From a virus: a DNA stretch of 43,153 bases. The notes below the pieces were generated by a model that saw nothing but the letters and a program-made list of their open reading frames with translations, did no database searches and was not told where the DNA came from. The stretch lies in IMG/VR virus record IMGVR_UViG_3300042868_003035, positions 1-43,153 of that record. The stretch is one strand, 5' to 3'. The translations under genes were made by a program, and so were the position numbers. Shown piece by piece: positions 873-43,153 of the stretch (the first letter of the stretch is position 1; each line of letters starts with the position of its first letter).

Positions 873-889
873 GGTACCTGTATTACCGG
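873..889 (+). promoter_or_regulatory. Candidate phage RNA polymerase promoter, copy 1
   Basis: GGTACCTGTATTACCGG matches the repeated motif AGTACC-T-n-TA-k-TAC found also at 13801, 20159, 23435 and 35662. It is the most upstream copy, ahead of the host-type promoters, where T7 has its phiOL promoter. The assignment as a promoter is inference from recurrence and position. Confidence 0.5.
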
Positions 890-990: not shown

Positions 991-1019
991 TTGACAAGAC
1001 AGATATACTGTGAGATAAT
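991..1019 (+). promoter_or_regulatory. Host sigma-70 type early promoter 1
   Basis: TTGACA at 991-996, a 17-base spacer, then GATAAT at 1014-1019. The -35 box is consensus and the -10 box has five of six consensus bases. First of five similar promoters reading toward the early genes. Confidence 0.85.
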
Positions 1020-1113
1020 ACAGGCCATGGATAGAGCATAGAGCGAGTCCATAGAGTAGAGCGCTACAGACTAGCAGCTACATAGACCGATAGACTGGGA
1101 CAAAGTAGACTAG

Positions 1114-1142
1114 TTGACAAGGCTATGACTAGATGATAGAAT
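1114..1142 (+). promoter_or_regulatory. Host sigma-70 type early promoter 2
   Basis: TTGACA at 1114-1119, a 17-base spacer, then TAGAAT at 1137-1142. Reads toward the early genes. Confidence 0.85.
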
Positions 1143-1173
1143 ACAGCGCATGGAATAAGAGCCTAGAAGGCTA

Positions 1174-1202
1174 TTGACAAGGGTTATAGAAAGCCTTATA
1201 AT
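1174..1202 (+). promoter_or_regulatory. Host sigma-70 type early promoter 3 (perfect consensus)
   Basis: TTGACA at 1174-1179, exactly 17 bases, then TATAAT at 1197-1202. Both boxes are perfect consensus, as expected for the strong early promoters of T7-like phages. Confidence 0.92.
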
Positions 1203-1231
1203 AGCGCTAAAGCAGGCTAGAAAGTAGGGAG

Positions 1232-1260
1232 TTGACAGGCTAGTGATAAACGTTTATAAT
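1232..1260 (+). promoter_or_regulatory. Host sigma-70 type early promoter 4 (perfect consensus)
   Basis: TTGACA at 1232-1237, exactly 17 bases, then TATAAT at 1255-1260. It is only 58 bases downstream of promoter 3 and shares the TATAATAGCGCT context, suggesting local duplication. Confidence 0.92.
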
Positions 1261-13752: not shown

Positions 13753-14821
13753 AGCACTAGGTAAACTAGCGGCTAGCGCTCAACCCATGGGTTCCGGTTC
13801 AGTACCTGTAGTACCGGGTCGAGTGCTTCTCGTAGATGGTGATGGTCTAGCTTACTATTGTGCAGGCACTGAAGAGACACACGCAGGAGAAGCAAAGCGC
13901 AGGCTGCTTGAGAAAGTAACTAGAGCCGCTGCCATAGTGGGTGCAATGCATACATGCATCTTGCTTACTGGATCAGGTAGTCACAAAGGGCATCGCTATG
14001 CGATAGCTCGCGTGAAGCCATATCAAGGCCAGCGTGCTAACGCTCGACGACCAGCGAACTGGGCTGTACTGCGGGACTGGATGGAGAGTAAAGACTTTCC
14101 ACTAGCAACCGAGGTAACAATGACCGCAGAGGCCGACGACCTATTTGGAGAACGGGCCTACCATGCTCCTGACGATGTAGTAATCTACACTCAAGACAAG
14201 GACATGCGTATGCTACCCGGCATACACCTTGACTGGGTTACTAATCGTATGCATCAGGTACACGTACTGCAACAGTCGCTGCGACCAAGCCTTGTTCAAG
14301 ACAGCGTATTCAACGACAAGCAGTACGGCCCTAAGTGGTTCTGGTTACAGATGCTGCACGGTGACAACGCTGACAACATCCCCGGCCTGCCGCTTGCCCG
14401 TTGCAAATACGGCGGCGGCCCCATCACTCCCGATGGCAAGCTCAACAAAGTGGGAGAGGCAGCAGCGCCTAAGATTCTGGATGCTCACTCCGACCTGACA
14501 CTAGCAGGTGCGGTGGAGCTAGCTTACCGCAGCTACTACGGTGAGCGCTGGCTTGTAGAAATGCTAGAGCAAGCTTGCCTACTCTGGATGCGCCGTGTGC
14601 CTGATAAGTGGGACGATTGCTTAGACCCCGGTGGGCCGCTTGAGTGGTTCAATGACGGTAGCGCAACGTTTACCAAAGCCTACCTAGAAATCCAATCACG
14701 AGTTAAGGAAGCAGATGACTACAATAAGGCGGCTGACAGTACGAGAAGTAGCTATAGTGCGGGAACAGCTAGCACTACAGCAGGGCGGCAGGTGTGCGAT
14801 ATGCCAGCTACCATTAACTAA
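13739..14821 (+). CDS. 5'-3' exonuclease (FEN/PIN-like)
   Basis: A 360-residue nuclease that removes primers and degrades DNA, functionally like T7 gp6. Metal-binding acidic motifs are visible: D33 in LLVDGDGLAYY, the AEADDLFGERAY stretch, YTQDKDMRML and the helix-hairpin region QMLHGDNADNIPGLP. The start at ATG 13739 is preferred; upstream in-frame ATGs would extend it far into the preceding gene. The first 28 residues are low in conservation signals, and a GTG at 13822 could be an alternative start. The candidate phage promoter at 13801 lies inside this N-terminal part. Confidence 0.88.
   Translation: MLDIKALGKLAASAQPMGSGSVPVVPGRVLLVDGDGLAYYCAGTEETHAGEAKRRLLEKVTRAAAIVGAMHTCILLTGSGSHKGHRYAIARVKPYQGQRANARRPANWAVLRDWMESKDFPLATEVTMTAEADDLFGERAYHAPDDVVIYTQDKDMRMLPGIHLDWVTNRMHQVHVLQQSLRPSLVQDSVFNDKQYGPKWFWLQMLHGDNADNIPGLPLARCKYGGGPITPDGKLNKVGEAAAPKILDAHSDLTLAGAVELAYRSYYGERWLVEMLEQACLLWMRRVPDKWDDCLDPGGPLEWFNDGSATFTKAYLEIQSRVKEADDYNKAADSTRSSYSAGTASTTAGRQVCDMPATIN
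13801..13817 (+). promoter_or_regulatory. Candidate phage RNA polymerase promoter, copy 2 (intragenic)
   Basis: AGTACCTGTAGTACCGG shares 15 identical bases with the capsid-gene copy at 23435. It lies in the 5' coding part of the exonuclease gene. Because coding constraint could produce it by chance, it is the least certain of the five. Confidence 0.4.
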
Positions 14822-17715: not shown

Positions 17716-20153
17716 CCCTTTTAAACCAGCGAGAGATAGAAGAGCTTATGTACTCTGGCGGCATACGCCGTGCGGAGGCCGCGATGAACAAGGCCGAAGA
17801 GCAAGGCCGCTCAGATCAAAACCCTTACGCTAAGGAGATTTTTCGTGAATACGTATTGCCGCTTGCTGGGGCCATCAAGGCCGACATTGAAGCTAAACGC
17901 GCAGGCCGAAGGCAAGCGCACGTTATGCTACTTAGTGGACTCGACATCGAGGCCGTTGCGTTCTTGTCTATTAGACACGCCATCACAACCCTACTCGGGG
18001 CTAAGCCCACAGACCACAGATCGCTTGGCTATGGCATCGGTAGGACGGTACACAGAGAACTAATCCTGTGCCAGATCAAAGAGGCAGCGCCGGAGTTATA
18101 CCAAACTCTAAGCCAAGACCTTGGCCGCAGACTGTCTAAGGACGAGCGGCATAAGCTAACAGTGTTCACCATGCAGGCCAAGCAGCGAGGCATCGACGTT
18201 ACCGAGTGGAACCTAGGCAGTAGAGAGCAAGTGGGTTTCTACATCATGGGTTTACTCGAAGTAATGGGGCTTATCTCAATCGGCAGCGAAGTGCGAAAGG
18301 GCTACAAGCGCGACACTAGGGACGTAAGCCTACACCCAGACATCATCGAAGAGATTAGCAAGGTCAAGGCTTACGTCTCATTGACTATGCCGGTATATGG
18401 GCCGTGCGTAGAGCCCCCATTTGACTGGGAGTTTGGCGTTACCGGTGGCTTTCACACTAGGGCCATGACCCATGCTAACCCAACCCTAGTACACGGCAGG
18501 TCTACCGCTAGGGCGCGTGGTAGGGCAGCAGACATGCCGACAGTATACTCAGCCGTCAATGCTTTGCAGCGTACAGCGTGGGCTATCAACGTGCGATTAC
18601 TCAACACGATGTACGCTGTAGCTAAACAGTTCTCGACCAAAGAGATTGTGTCGTTGGCCGACACCCCCGCCCCACTAAAGCCCGAGTGGCTTAAGGAAGA
18701 TTGGACTAAAGAGGCTAAGGAGAACTGGCCTGCTGATAAGCTTGCCGAGTTCAAGAAATGGAAGTGGGATACGGCTGAGTGGCATACGCAGCGCAAGCTG
18801 TTAGGTTCGCGCTATGCTAGGTTCTATTCAGCTACCCGCACTGCCGAAATGTTCAGAGAGTATCCGGCAATATACTTTGTGTACTTTGCTGACTCTCGCG
18901 GCAGGCTCTACCCATTGACTCAAGGTGTAAGCCCCCAAGGCTCGGACATGGGCAAGGCCCTACTGCGCTTTGCAGAAGGCAAGCCTTTGAAGGATGCGTA
19001 TGCAGTGCGCTGGTTCCACGTGCAGGGTGCTAACAAGTGGGGCTTCGATAAGGCCACGCTCGATGATCGCATGGCGTGGGTTAAAGAGCGTAAGGATTTA
19101 ATCCTATCTTTCGCTGCTGATCCCGTTAACAACGTGGGCTGGACAGAAGCTGGTGATCCGCTACAGTTCCTAGCTTGGTGCTTCGAGTACGAAGAGTACT
19201 GCAATTCGCCTGATACTTTCCTGTCTTATCTTCCGATCAGTATGGACGGTAGCTGTAATGGGCTACAGAACCTCAGCGCTATGTTCCGAGACGAGATAGG
19301 GGGTGCTGCTACTAACCTGACGAACAACGCGGTGATGCGCGACATCTACGCTGACGTAGCCAAAGCGGCCACTGTGAGGCTAGAGGCCATGCTGCCGAAG
19401 CTAGACGCCGAAGAGGCGGCAATCGTTAGGCAGTGGATAGCCCATGGTGTAGAACGCAAGGCTGTAAAGCGCTCAGTCATGACTACACCTTATGGCGTAA
19501 CAGAGCGCACCGCTACCGAGTACATCGTCGACGACTACCTACGTGAAAAGTCAGGCCCTACCTTCGACCCTAACCAGTACCGCAAAGCTGCCAAGCTACT
19601 CATGTCTGCGGTGTGGCCTGCTATTGGTGACGTAGTTGTTAAGGGCCGAGAGGCTATGGACTGGCTTAGGAAATCTGCACGCCAGATCATGAAAGAGACA
19701 GGCACTAAGACTATCACGTGGACTACACCTAGCGGATTCCCAGCATGTCAGGATTACTTCGAGGCTGAGGTACATAGGATCAACACCCACCTACACGGCC
19801 CTGTCAAGATCAGAGTGCTTAGCGAAACAGACGAGCCTGACAAGGCACGGCATGCTAGTGGCCTCGCTCCGAACTTTGTTCATAGCCTAGACGCAGCGCA
19901 CTTGCACTTGACCACTGCGGATGCTAGCAGGCAAGGTATCACTGCGCTGGCAATGATACACGACGACTACGGTACACACGCTGCTGATTCTCAGTTGCTG
20001 TTTGACATTATCCGTAAGCAGTTTGTTGCGATGTACTTAGCCTGTGACCCACCGGCTATGTTCTACGAACAGTACCCCAAGATCGACCTACCTCCTGCTA
20101 AGGGCAACTTAGACATCATGGAAGTGCTTGAGTCGGACTTCTTTTTTAGTTAA
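17712..20153 (+). CDS. Single-subunit phage RNA polymerase (T7-like)
   Basis: An 813-residue DNA-directed RNA polymerase that transcribes the phage's middle and late genes from its own promoters. Catalytic residues align with T7: D512 (SMDGSCNGLQN), K586 and Y594 (KRSVMTTPYG), and H750-D751 (MIHDDYGTHAAD). Also visible are DSRGRLYPLTQG and the C-terminal ESDFFFS, which mirrors the T7 polymerase end. The gene lies after ligase and directly before structural genes, as in phiKMV-like phages rather than T7, where it is the first early gene. It would therefore be expressed at the end of the host-driven transcript. Confidence 0.97.
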   Translation: MTLLNQREIEELMYSGGIRRAEAAMNKAEEQGRSDQNPYAKEIFREYVLPLAGAIKADIEAKRAGRRQAHVMLLSGLDIEAVAFLSIRHAITTLLGAKPTDHRSLGYGIGRTVHRELILCQIKEAAPELYQTLSQDLGRRLSKDERHKLTVFTMQAKQRGIDVTEWNLGSREQVGFYIMGLLEVMGLISIGSEVRKGYKRDTRDVSLHPDIIEEISKVKAYVSLTMPVYGPCVEPPFDWEFGVTGGFHTRAMTHANPTLVHGRSTARARGRAADMPTVYSAVNALQRTAWAINVRLLNTMYAVAKQFSTKEIVSLADTPAPLKPEWLKEDWTKEAKENWPADKLAEFKKWKWDTAEWHTQRKLLGSRYARFYSATRTAEMFREYPAIYFVYFADSRGRLYPLTQGVSPQGSDMGKALLRFAEGKPLKDAYAVRWFHVQGANKWGFDKATLDDRMAWVKERKDLILSFAADPVNNVGWTEAGDPLQFLAWCFEYEEYCNSPDTFLSYLPISMDGSCNGLQNLSAMFRDEIGGAATNLTNNAVMRDIYADVAKAATVRLEAMLPKLDAEEAAIVRQWIAHGVERKAVKRSVMTTPYGVTERTATEYIVDDYLREKSGPTFDPNQYRKAAKLLMSAVWPAIGDVVVKGREAMDWLRKSARQIMKETGTKTITWTTPSGFPACQDYFEAEVHRINTHLHGPVKIRVLSETDEPDKARHASGLAPNFVHSLDAAHLHLTTADASRQGITALAMIHDDYGTHAADSQLLFDIIRKQFVAMYLACDPPAMFYEQYPKIDLPPAKGNLDIMEVLESDFFFS

Positions 20154-20158
20154 ATTAC

Positions 20159-20175
20159 AGTACCTTTATTACACT
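20159..20175 (+). promoter_or_regulatory. Candidate phage RNA polymerase promoter, copy 3
   Basis: AGTACCTTTATTACACT lies six bases after the RNA polymerase stop and ends directly at the ATG of the next gene. Its position after the polymerase gene is where T7 has its first own promoters. Confidence 0.55.
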
Positions 20176-20364
20176 ATGAATAAACCAACAACCACCCCTG
20201 TCACTACTGTTACGAGGCTGCACCCGGAAATTTATGCTAAGCTTGAACAGCGCTTCTCAAAGACTATCGTCACAGAGGCAACAACCCCGCTGACAGCGGC
20301 TTACGCTCTTGGCATCGAGGCTGTTCTAAAAGAGCTTCGCAATGGTTACGTGGTGACGCTATGA
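20176..20364 (+). CDS. Small protein downstream of RNA polymerase
   Basis: A 62-residue protein starting at ATG 20176. An upstream in-frame TTG (20128) lies inside the polymerase gene and is not preferred. There is no Shine-Dalgarno sequence; the promoter-like motif ends directly at the ATG. The protein has a Thr-rich start and a helical region PEIYAKLEQRFS followed by PLTAAYALGIEAVLKELR, suggesting a small DNA-binding or dimerising fold. Function unknown. Confidence 0.65.
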   Translation: MNKPTTTPVTTVTRLHPEIYAKLEQRFSKTIVTEATTPLTAAYALGIEAVLKELRNGYVVTL

Positions 20365-23434: not shown

Positions 23435-23451
23435 AGTACCTGTAGTACCTT
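23435..23451 (+). promoter_or_regulatory. Candidate phage RNA polymerase promoter, copy 4 (major capsid)
   Basis: AGTACCTGTAGTACCTT, preceded by TTTT as in the 35662 copy, lies in the gap before the major capsid gene, where T7 has its strongest promoter (phi10). A small AGCC-ATTA-GGCT stem followed by TTCTC comes just after it. Confidence 0.65.
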
Positions 23452-23499: not shown

Positions 23500-24507
23500 A
23501 TGGCCTTAGATGACAGTTTCAACATTGTCCGTCCCGGACAATCCAATCAAGCAGGTGTGGTTAACGCCCTGCATCTTGAAGAGTTCACAGGCGTTGTAGA
23601 GTCTACCATCGAGCGCAAATCAGCGCTTAAGGGTATGATCCCTATTCGCCCTGTACGTGGCGCTTCTGTTCTTACCAACTTCGCCGTTGGTGGATCGACT
23701 CTCCAGCGTGCTAATCCCGGAGGCCCCGCCCCTGACGGAACAGGCACCGACTTTGCCAAGCGCACCCTGACGGTGGATACGGTCATTCTCGCTCGTGCAA
23801 TTCTGCCATTGCTGGAGACTTTCCAAACCTCTTACGATGCCCGTAAGGAAATCGGTCTGGAGCATGGCAAGAAGATTGCTAAGTTCACCGACCAGTCTTT
23901 CTTCATTCAGGCTATCAAAGCTGGCTTGCTGACTGACTCTGCTTATCGCGGCTCTGGCGCTGCTGGTAAACCTCTTGACCATTTCGGCGGCTCTCAGCAA
24001 ACTCTCGCGGCTGCTGGTGACTCCCTCGATCCGGCTAAGCTTTACGCTGCCGTGGCAAACTTGTTTGTCAAGATGGAAGAGAAGGACGTTGATCCCCGCA
24101 ATGACGATGTCATGATCGCTTTGCGTCCCGCTGAGTTCTACACTCTGTTGCAGAACGAGCAGTTGATCGACGGTACTTACAAGACCGCAGAGGGCACGAA
24201 CATTCAAGCTCAGTTGCTCAAAGCCTACGGTGTGCCAGTCGTTAGCTCGACTAACTTCCCCGGTGGCCTGACCATCAGCGGTCACTTGCTGTCGAATGCC
24301 AACAACTCTAACGCCTATGACGGCGACTTCACAAAAGTCGTTGGCTGTGCGTTCTCTCCCCGCGCTTTGCTGGCCGGTGAGACTATCCCTTTGACCACTG
24401 ACGTGTTCTGGGATAAGGTCACTAAGCAGTGGTTCGTCGATGCCCACTTGGCATACGGTGTTACCCCTAACCGCGCTGAATTCTCTGGCGTGATCCTCAA
24501 GCCGTAA
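23500..24507 (+). CDS. Major capsid protein
   Basis: A 335-residue protein with AAAAGGAG before its ATG, between scaffold and tail tube genes, matching T7 gp10 in place and size. It has the features of the HK97-fold capsids of this group, such as the long N-arm, the KGMIPIRPVRGASVL region and the conserved AFSPRALLAGETIPL near the end. Codon use is strongly biased to common host codons, with no CTA, ATA or AGG, as expected for the most abundant virion protein. A terminator follows immediately. Confidence 0.95.
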   Translation: MALDDSFNIVRPGQSNQAGVVNALHLEEFTGVVESTIERKSALKGMIPIRPVRGASVLTNFAVGGSTLQRANPGGPAPDGTGTDFAKRTLTVDTVILARAILPLLETFQTSYDARKEIGLEHGKKIAKFTDQSFFIQAIKAGLLTDSAYRGSGAAGKPLDHFGGSQQTLAAAGDSLDPAKLYAAVANLFVKMEEKDVDPRNDDVMIALRPAEFYTLLQNEQLIDGTYKTAEGTNIQAQLLKAYGVPVVSSTNFPGGLTISGHLLSNANNSNAYDGDFTKVVGCAFSPRALLAGETIPLTTDVFWDKVTKQWFVDAHLAYGVTPNRAEFSGVILKP

Positions 24508-24546: not shown

Positions 24547-24569
24547 TGCGTAGATTACTTATCAACATA

Positions 24570-24596
24570 CCCTCCCTAACCGGAGGGTTTTTTTTT
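24570..24596 (+). terminator. Rho-independent terminator after major capsid gene
   Basis: CCCTCC (24570-24575) pairs with GGAGGG (24582-24587) around a six-base loop, followed directly by nine T residues. This is the classic form and matches the position of the T7 late terminator after gene 10. Confidence 0.93.
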
Positions 24597-35661: not shown

Positions 35662-35678
35662 AGTACCTATAGTACACG
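35662..35678 (+). promoter_or_regulatory. Candidate phage RNA polymerase promoter, copy 5 (tail spike)
   Basis: AGTACCTATAGTACACG, preceded by CTTTT, contains CTATAG like the core of T7 promoters. It lies before the tail spike gene, where T7 has phi17, and abuts a terminator hairpin. Confidence 0.6.
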
Positions 35679-35715
35679 ACCCTAGTTTACCTCGACAGTA
35701 AGCTAGGGTATTTTT
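35679..35715 (+). terminator. Rho-independent terminator before tail spike gene
   Basis: ACCCTAGTTTAC (35679-35690) pairs with GTAAGCTAGGGT (35698-35709) with one T-G pair, around a seven-base loop, followed by ATTTTT. It can end transcripts coming through the ejection genes. It begins directly after the promoter-like motif, so it would also be the leader of a transcript from that promoter. Confidence 0.85.
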
Positions 35716-42616: not shown

Positions 42617-43153
42617 TGAGTGCATATATTGCTGATAATCAGCTACCGTTTAAGTATACGGCTACAGGCGCTATTGCGCTTAATGCCGTAATCTTTGATT
42701 GGGATACGCAAGAAGTAGAAGCACCGGGCTTAGCCCTGCATGTGCATGCTTTAGGAGTAGGCTGTGTGCTTACGCCTGAGTGGAGCAGCGACGAAGTAAA
42801 CTGGCGGGATGGCTGGATTGAGCCTACCGTGCTTAACAGTGTAATAGTAGCTACTATTACAGCGGCTGGGTTGTATAACGTGCCTAAGCTCGCAAGGTTC
42901 ATCCGGCTACGTGTGTCTACAGCCCAAAGCTCAGGCACTACTACGTTGTCCGTAACCAAGAGCTATGCAGACTTCCGCACTGCTACAGCTAGCGGTACTA
43001 GTGCAATGGCAGGAGCGGCTGCTCACGATGCCGTTATTCTCGGCAACCCAGTGCGTATTGGCGCGAGGGCTATAACAGCTAACTACGCGGCTGTAGCAAC
43101 AGGTGACGTAGCAGACTTAGTGTGTACCCTTACTGGGGCTCAAATTACTAAAG
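42616..43153 (+). CDS. Virion/tail-associated protein, N-terminal part (continues at base 1)
   Basis: The gene starts at ATG 42616, overlapping the o-spanin stop (TAATG at 42614-42618), and stays open to the window end. The last 127 bases repeat the window start in the same frame. Joined, it encodes 291 residues from 42616-43026 plus 1-465. The N-terminal part (YIADNQLPFKYTATGAIALN, then WSSDEVNWRDGWIEPTVLN) is beta-rich and looks structural. It is not recognised as a known family. Confidence 0.85.
   Translation, partial: MSAYIADNQLPFKYTATGAIALNAVIFDWDTQEVEAPGLALHVHALGVGCVLTPEWSSDEVNWRDGWIEPTVLNSVIVATITAAGLYNVPKLARFIRLRVSTAQSSGTTTLSVTKSYADFRTATASGTSAMAGAAAHDAVILGNPVRIGARAITANYAAVATGDVADLVCTLTGAQITK
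43027..43153. repeat. Right copy of 127-bp terminal overlap
   Basis: Identical to bases 1-127. Removing one copy gives a circular unit of 43,026 bp with an uninterrupted gene across the join. Confidence 0.95.

Follow-up and report, generated by a model that had tools for sequence, protein, structure and literature searches.

A predicted promoter of the phage's own RNA polymerase in a P26059B-related T7-like phage, with a first base that covaries with residue 748 of the specificity loop

Single-subunit phage polymerases are mainstays of RNA production and of gene-circuit design. In the T7 enzyme, specificity-loop residue N748 contacts base pairs -10 and -11, R756 contacts -9 and Q758 contacts -8 (PMC5937735). 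Promoters of the T7, T3 and SP6 class carry CACTATAG at -7 to +1. Described promoters of other phage polymerases include that of cyanophage Syn5, ATTGGGCACCCGTAA followed by G (PMC3950665), and that of Klebsiella phage KP34, TAATGTTACAGGAGTA followed by GGG (PMC6834552). A 2024 screen of 26 enzymes gives GCAACATTACAGGTACTGAA as the predicted promoter of R23, the RNA polymerase of Curvibacter phage P26059B (PMC11475235 Table 1). In this screen, 18 of the 26 pairs were inactive and wrong promoters were suspected; promoter prediction is named as the bottleneck, and the text gives no individual result for R23 (PMC11475235).

The window, i.e. the whole stretch of 43,153 nucleotides analysed here (IMG/VR record IMGVR_UViG_3300042868_003035), is the genome of a T7-like freshwater phage. 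The same 127 bases stand at both ends (1-127 and 43027-43153), as in a circular assembly. The assembly cut falls inside coding sequence, and the true termini probably lie elsewhere, perhaps within the non-coding stretch 466-1940. All recognised genes lie on the + strand, in the order exonuclease, endonuclease VII, ligase-position gene (so called from its place relative to the annotated P26059B genes), RNA polymerase, portal, scaffold, capsid, tail, internal virion proteins, tail fibre and terminase. The genome thus encodes its own single-subunit polymerase, which is clearly homologous to T7 RNA polymerase structures (E~1e-103) and 73.5% identical to the P26059B enzyme.

A short motif, AGTACCTNTANTAC, occurs exactly at 13801, 20159, 23435 and 35662, and with one mismatch at 873 (GGTACCTGTATTAC), throughout on the + strand. 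These near-identical copies on the transcribed strand precede blocks of middle and late genes, and relatives have them at homologous places. The sequence-only reading had already proposed the five sites as promoters of the phage's own polymerase, an interpretation that gains support from shuffled sequence, conservation of place and covariation with the specificity loop. Its remark that four of the five lie outside genes holds, the copy in the exonuclease being the sole intragenic one. The consensus is better given as TTYAGTACC-T-R-TA-N-TAC. Read from the sequence, TTYAGTACCTRTANTAC is very probably the promoter that the single-subunit RNA polymerase of the phage recognises. The features are compiled in Table 1.

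Table 1. Candidate promoters and associated features in the window
Feature	Coordinates	Strand	Remarks
Left-end promoter copy GGTACCTGTATTAC, weakest of the five	873..886	+	Upstream of early host-type promoters, non-coding region
Cluster of strong sigma70-like promoters	991..1260	+	991, 1114, 1174, 1232; last two 12/12
Promoter copy in exonuclease 5' coding region (codons S-V-P-V-V)	13801..13814	+	14 nt past exonuclease ATG
RNA polymerase, T7-type single-subunit, 813 aa	17712..20153	+	PHROG 414 E=2e-264
Specificity loop (T7 739-770 equivalent)	19755..19841	+	R689, N691, K699, R701 = T7 R746, N748, R756, Q758 by alignment
Promoter copy AGTACCTTTATTAC	20159..20172	+	5 nt past polymerase stop, 3 nt ahead of next ATG (20176)
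Promoter copy AGTACCTGTAGTAC, between scaffold and major capsid gene (23500)	23435..23448	+	Predicted start within 23445-23447
Major capsid protein gene	23500..24507	+	PHROG 267 E=1e-77; assigned to 23435 promoter
Terminator-like hairpin and T-run directly after capsid gene	24569..24596	+	Similar arrangement after P26059B capsid
Promoter copy AGTACCTATAGTAC, between internal virion protein and tail fibre gene (35731)	35662..35675	+	
12-bp hairpin directly downstream of 35662 promoter	35679..35709	+	

The repeat is real and above chance. A weight matrix made from 28 sites in 12 relatives, with the window excluded, scores the five sites at 31.1, 30.9, 30.2, 21.1 and 15.5 bits. These are the five best scores in the window and fall at the very positions that the sequence-only reading had listed; the best score elsewhere, on either strand, is 7.4 bits. 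In 300 dinucleotide shuffles, the best score over both strands averages 11.3 (sd 3.0) and reaches 23.1 at most, so that the comparison with shuffled sequence which that reading had suggested finds the motif rarer there. The 873 site is weak alone, because its score is within the range of the shuffled maxima; it occupies the left-end non-coding region, where P26059B likewise has two copies. Weak sites such as 4630, 14747 and 23444 fall under the matrix gap and were rejected. If up to three mismatches are allowed, the pattern occurs 36 times in the window versus 38.8 expected from shuffles, i.e. no excess, and the signal is therefore confined to near-exact copies; as loose matching swamps the signal, this count was discarded as a test. 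No 14-mer with two wildcards has more than four copies in the window; one other 14-mer also has four, and 2 of 60 shuffles attain this number. Over-representation in the window alone was dropped as proof, since it is borderline when every 14-mer is counted.

Conservation of place is evident in related phages. The P26059B genome, deposited in reverse, holds six copies of the motif, all on the gene strand. The left end has two of them; the others stand singly at the exonuclease start, just after the polymerase, before the capsid and before the tail fibre. In IMG/VR relatives gathered by their polymerase alone, the motif typically lies 2-5 nt past the polymerase stop and recurs before the capsid gene and in the exonuclease. 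The motif is kept at the same gene boundaries in related phages, a check that the sequence-only reading had proposed for capsid and tail genes, the copy ahead of the tail fibre being that of P26059B. Because these sites had been found with the window motif, a motif-free search was made, in which post-polymerase DNA was compared with pre-capsid DNA and the best match without gaps was taken. It recovers the same element at 17/17 identity in P26059B, L027 and L035, and altered elements in more distant relatives: AGTACCGGTATAAC (L086), TGATCCATATAACG (L087), GGTCCCTATAGTAG (L088) and GGTACGCTCTAGCA (Aquamicrobium phage P14). The last is the promoter previously predicted for P14 in published work. 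No match was found near the polymerase in some relatives, e.g. L024 and L029, and in L068, with a K/Q loop, the element after the polymerase gene is not clearly recognisable; L024, L029 and L068 have full or nearly full polymerases. Other repeated elements stand at the same two places in the more distant L030, L087, L103, L147 and L152 (e.g. GATCCACTAATAGGATAA in L030) and are likely further promoter specificities.

The first base of the motif covaries with polymerase residue 748 (T7 numbering). Sites for this comparison were located from bases 5-14 alone; bases 1-4 were ignored in the search, and base 1 was read afterwards. At high-scoring sites, Asn is found with A 28 times and with G four times, Arg with G 19 times and Ser with T in 5/5; two discordant Arg sites, in the distant genomes L102 and L103, look like chance matches. 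Counted by genome, with L102 left out beforehand (48% identical and lacking a repeated element), Asn goes with A in 15/16 and with G in the remaining one, and Arg goes with G in 11/11 and never with A (Fisher p 9e-7, kinship ignored). On a tree built without the specificity loop, the base follows in 3.9 on average of four independent Asn/Arg switches; with only four such pairs, the sign test (p 0.125) is unable to reach 0.05. The Asn rule is a preference, because L002 pairs Asn with mostly G, and every L002 site near the genes compared here has G. The exonuclease copy is coding (M-G-x-G-S/A-V-P), base 1 of the motif being the third base of the Ser/Ala codon. This codon is TCA or GCA with Asn (GCG in L002, the exception) and TCG or GCG with Arg; in Ser-type phages, the exonuclease residues are changed too (GAT GCG). 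That silent sites track a polymerase residue is hard to account for except by DNA recognition. Collectively, the specificity loop and the recognition bases agree, in that residue 748 covaries with base 1, and this covariation argues that the motif is the cognate promoter of the phage polymerase. An association of residue 756 with bases 3-4 is suggestive, but it is confounded with residue 748 and no claim is made for it.

The GTAC half-sites and partial symmetry of the motif, which are common in operators, could suggest that something other than the phage polymerase binds it, for instance a phage repressor or activator or a host sigma factor, and so steers the host polymerase at the middle and late genes. 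This is very improbable. The symmetry is lost in relatives with A or C at base 11, base 1 tracks the specificity-loop residue over independent lineages, and the late region has 15 sigma70-like sites against 13.0 expected, no clear excess. Scarcely probable at all is a role of the motif in RNA, as a signal for processing or translation close to start codons, or its origin as a coding or chance repeat. The distance to the next ATG varies between -2 and more than 50 nt, the exonuclease has synonymous codon changes that go along with residue 748, the same bases are found in intergenic and coding copies, and the relatives-only matrix singles out the five sites. These observations outweigh the adjacency of the post-polymerase copy to the next ATG, the in-frame exonuclease copy in all relatives, and the exact 18-mers across IMG/VR, which sit in coding sequence of contigs without a window-type polymerase and were rejected as promoters for this reason. 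Recognition by the phage polymerase is the preferred reading.

Compared with described promoters, the motif appears to be of the phage single-subunit polymerase type with a new consensus. Like those of T7, T3 and SP6, it is a repeated element on the coding strand ahead of the capsid gene and other blocks, some copies contain CTATAG, and there is covariation at the loop position that should read -10/-11. Unlike them, it lacks the CACTATAG core, has a variable start base and other recognition bases, and reads ACCTRTANTAC in place of the class sequence. The sequence-only reading was right that the consensus differs from those three; it left unmentioned a partial likeness to the Syn5 promoter ATTGGGCACCCGTAA. 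By hand alignment, 10/15 bases of the latter match a P26059B site (TT, G, ACC, GTAA), and both promoters are short and without CACTATAG. The Syn5 polymerase is, however, just 29% identical, with loop residues E/K/R/K; the bases at key positions are unlike those of the motif, and the Syn5 promoter has no TAC tail. The motif does not belong to the Syn5 class, and the likeness may be convergence. With KP34, the locus shares a polymerase encoded beside structural genes, as in phiKMV-like phages, but the promoter sequence is unrelated and the polymerase is 28% identical, with loop residues R/R/A/L. A literature search did not find the motif, as queried, printed in any paper.

The P26059B prediction deserves separate attention. 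The reverse complement of GCAACATTACAGGTACTGAA is TTCAGTACCTGTAATGTTGC, which contains the core TTCAGTACCTGTAAT. The best matches of GCAACATTACAGGTACTGAA in the P26059B genome fall on 5 of the 6 motif sites, with 3-5 mismatches, on the deposited strand and so opposite to the genes. The prediction for R23 differs from the motif in this orientation and in a divergent end, and it was made without place conservation or loop covariation. It is apparently reversed because the genome was deposited in reverse. As the published prediction is the reverse complement of the motif, the P26059B pair was probably tested backwards, and use of this prediction in the wrong orientation in the 2024 screen is very likely.

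Presence of the motif, its conservation of place and its covariation with residue 748 are computed results; polymerase binding, melting and start site are predicted from sequence, as follows. The host RNA polymerase would first read the early genes from sigma70-like promoters near 1-1.3 kb. The phage polymerase (17712-20153) would then bind the five copies, its specificity loop reading bases 1-4 (AGTA, T7 positions about -11 to -7) with Asn691 (T7 748) on base 1. The TRTA stretch (bases 7-10), AT-rich and just ahead of the start, would be the place of DNA melting, and RNA would start within bases 11-13, i.e. 23445-23447 at the capsid. Base 11, the start position in the T7 register, varies instead of being fixed as G, and A is conserved at base 13; by conservation, starts at base 11, at base 12 (Syn5 register) and at base 13 are inseparable. 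The copies would drive the exonuclease-to-polymerase block, the post-polymerase genes, the capsid, the tail fibre and a left-end transcript. The exonuclease copy would feed the block containing the polymerase gene itself.

Hairpins are common just past the motif. The one following the 35662 promoter may be either a 5' stem-loop of that promoter's transcript or a terminator against read-through. Sequence-divergent hairpins lie a few bases past the promoter in the capsid leaders of L001, L002, L008, L017, L027, L032, L035 and L059. Individual z-scores of folded capsid leaders spread from -0.2 to -4.9, and for this reason the capsid-leader hairpins are taken as supporting evidence. A hairpin after the promoter with a strong terminator-like hairpin after the capsid resembles the layout of T7 phi10 and T-phi. 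At the post-polymerase site, the promoter ends 0-3 nt ahead of the next ATG, or overlaps it, without a Shine-Dalgarno sequence, in the window (20159-20176) and in L001, L003, L006-L009, L013, L014, L016, L017, L028, L032, L033, L056 and L057; transcripts from such promoters would therefore have almost no leader. In other relatives, an ordinary ribosome site is present there.

Taken as a whole, the data make it fairly probable that a separate class of promoter-polymerase specificity exists in a P26059B-related, mostly uncultured clade of Autographiviridae, with a simple code between residue 748 and base 1 (Asn-A, Arg-G, Ser-T), several natural and probably mutually selective pairs, and a P26059B pair tested backwards in the published screen. 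For the whole P26059B-related clade, this gives a well-supported predicted promoter, and it provides a natural data set on the joint change of specificity loop and promoter.
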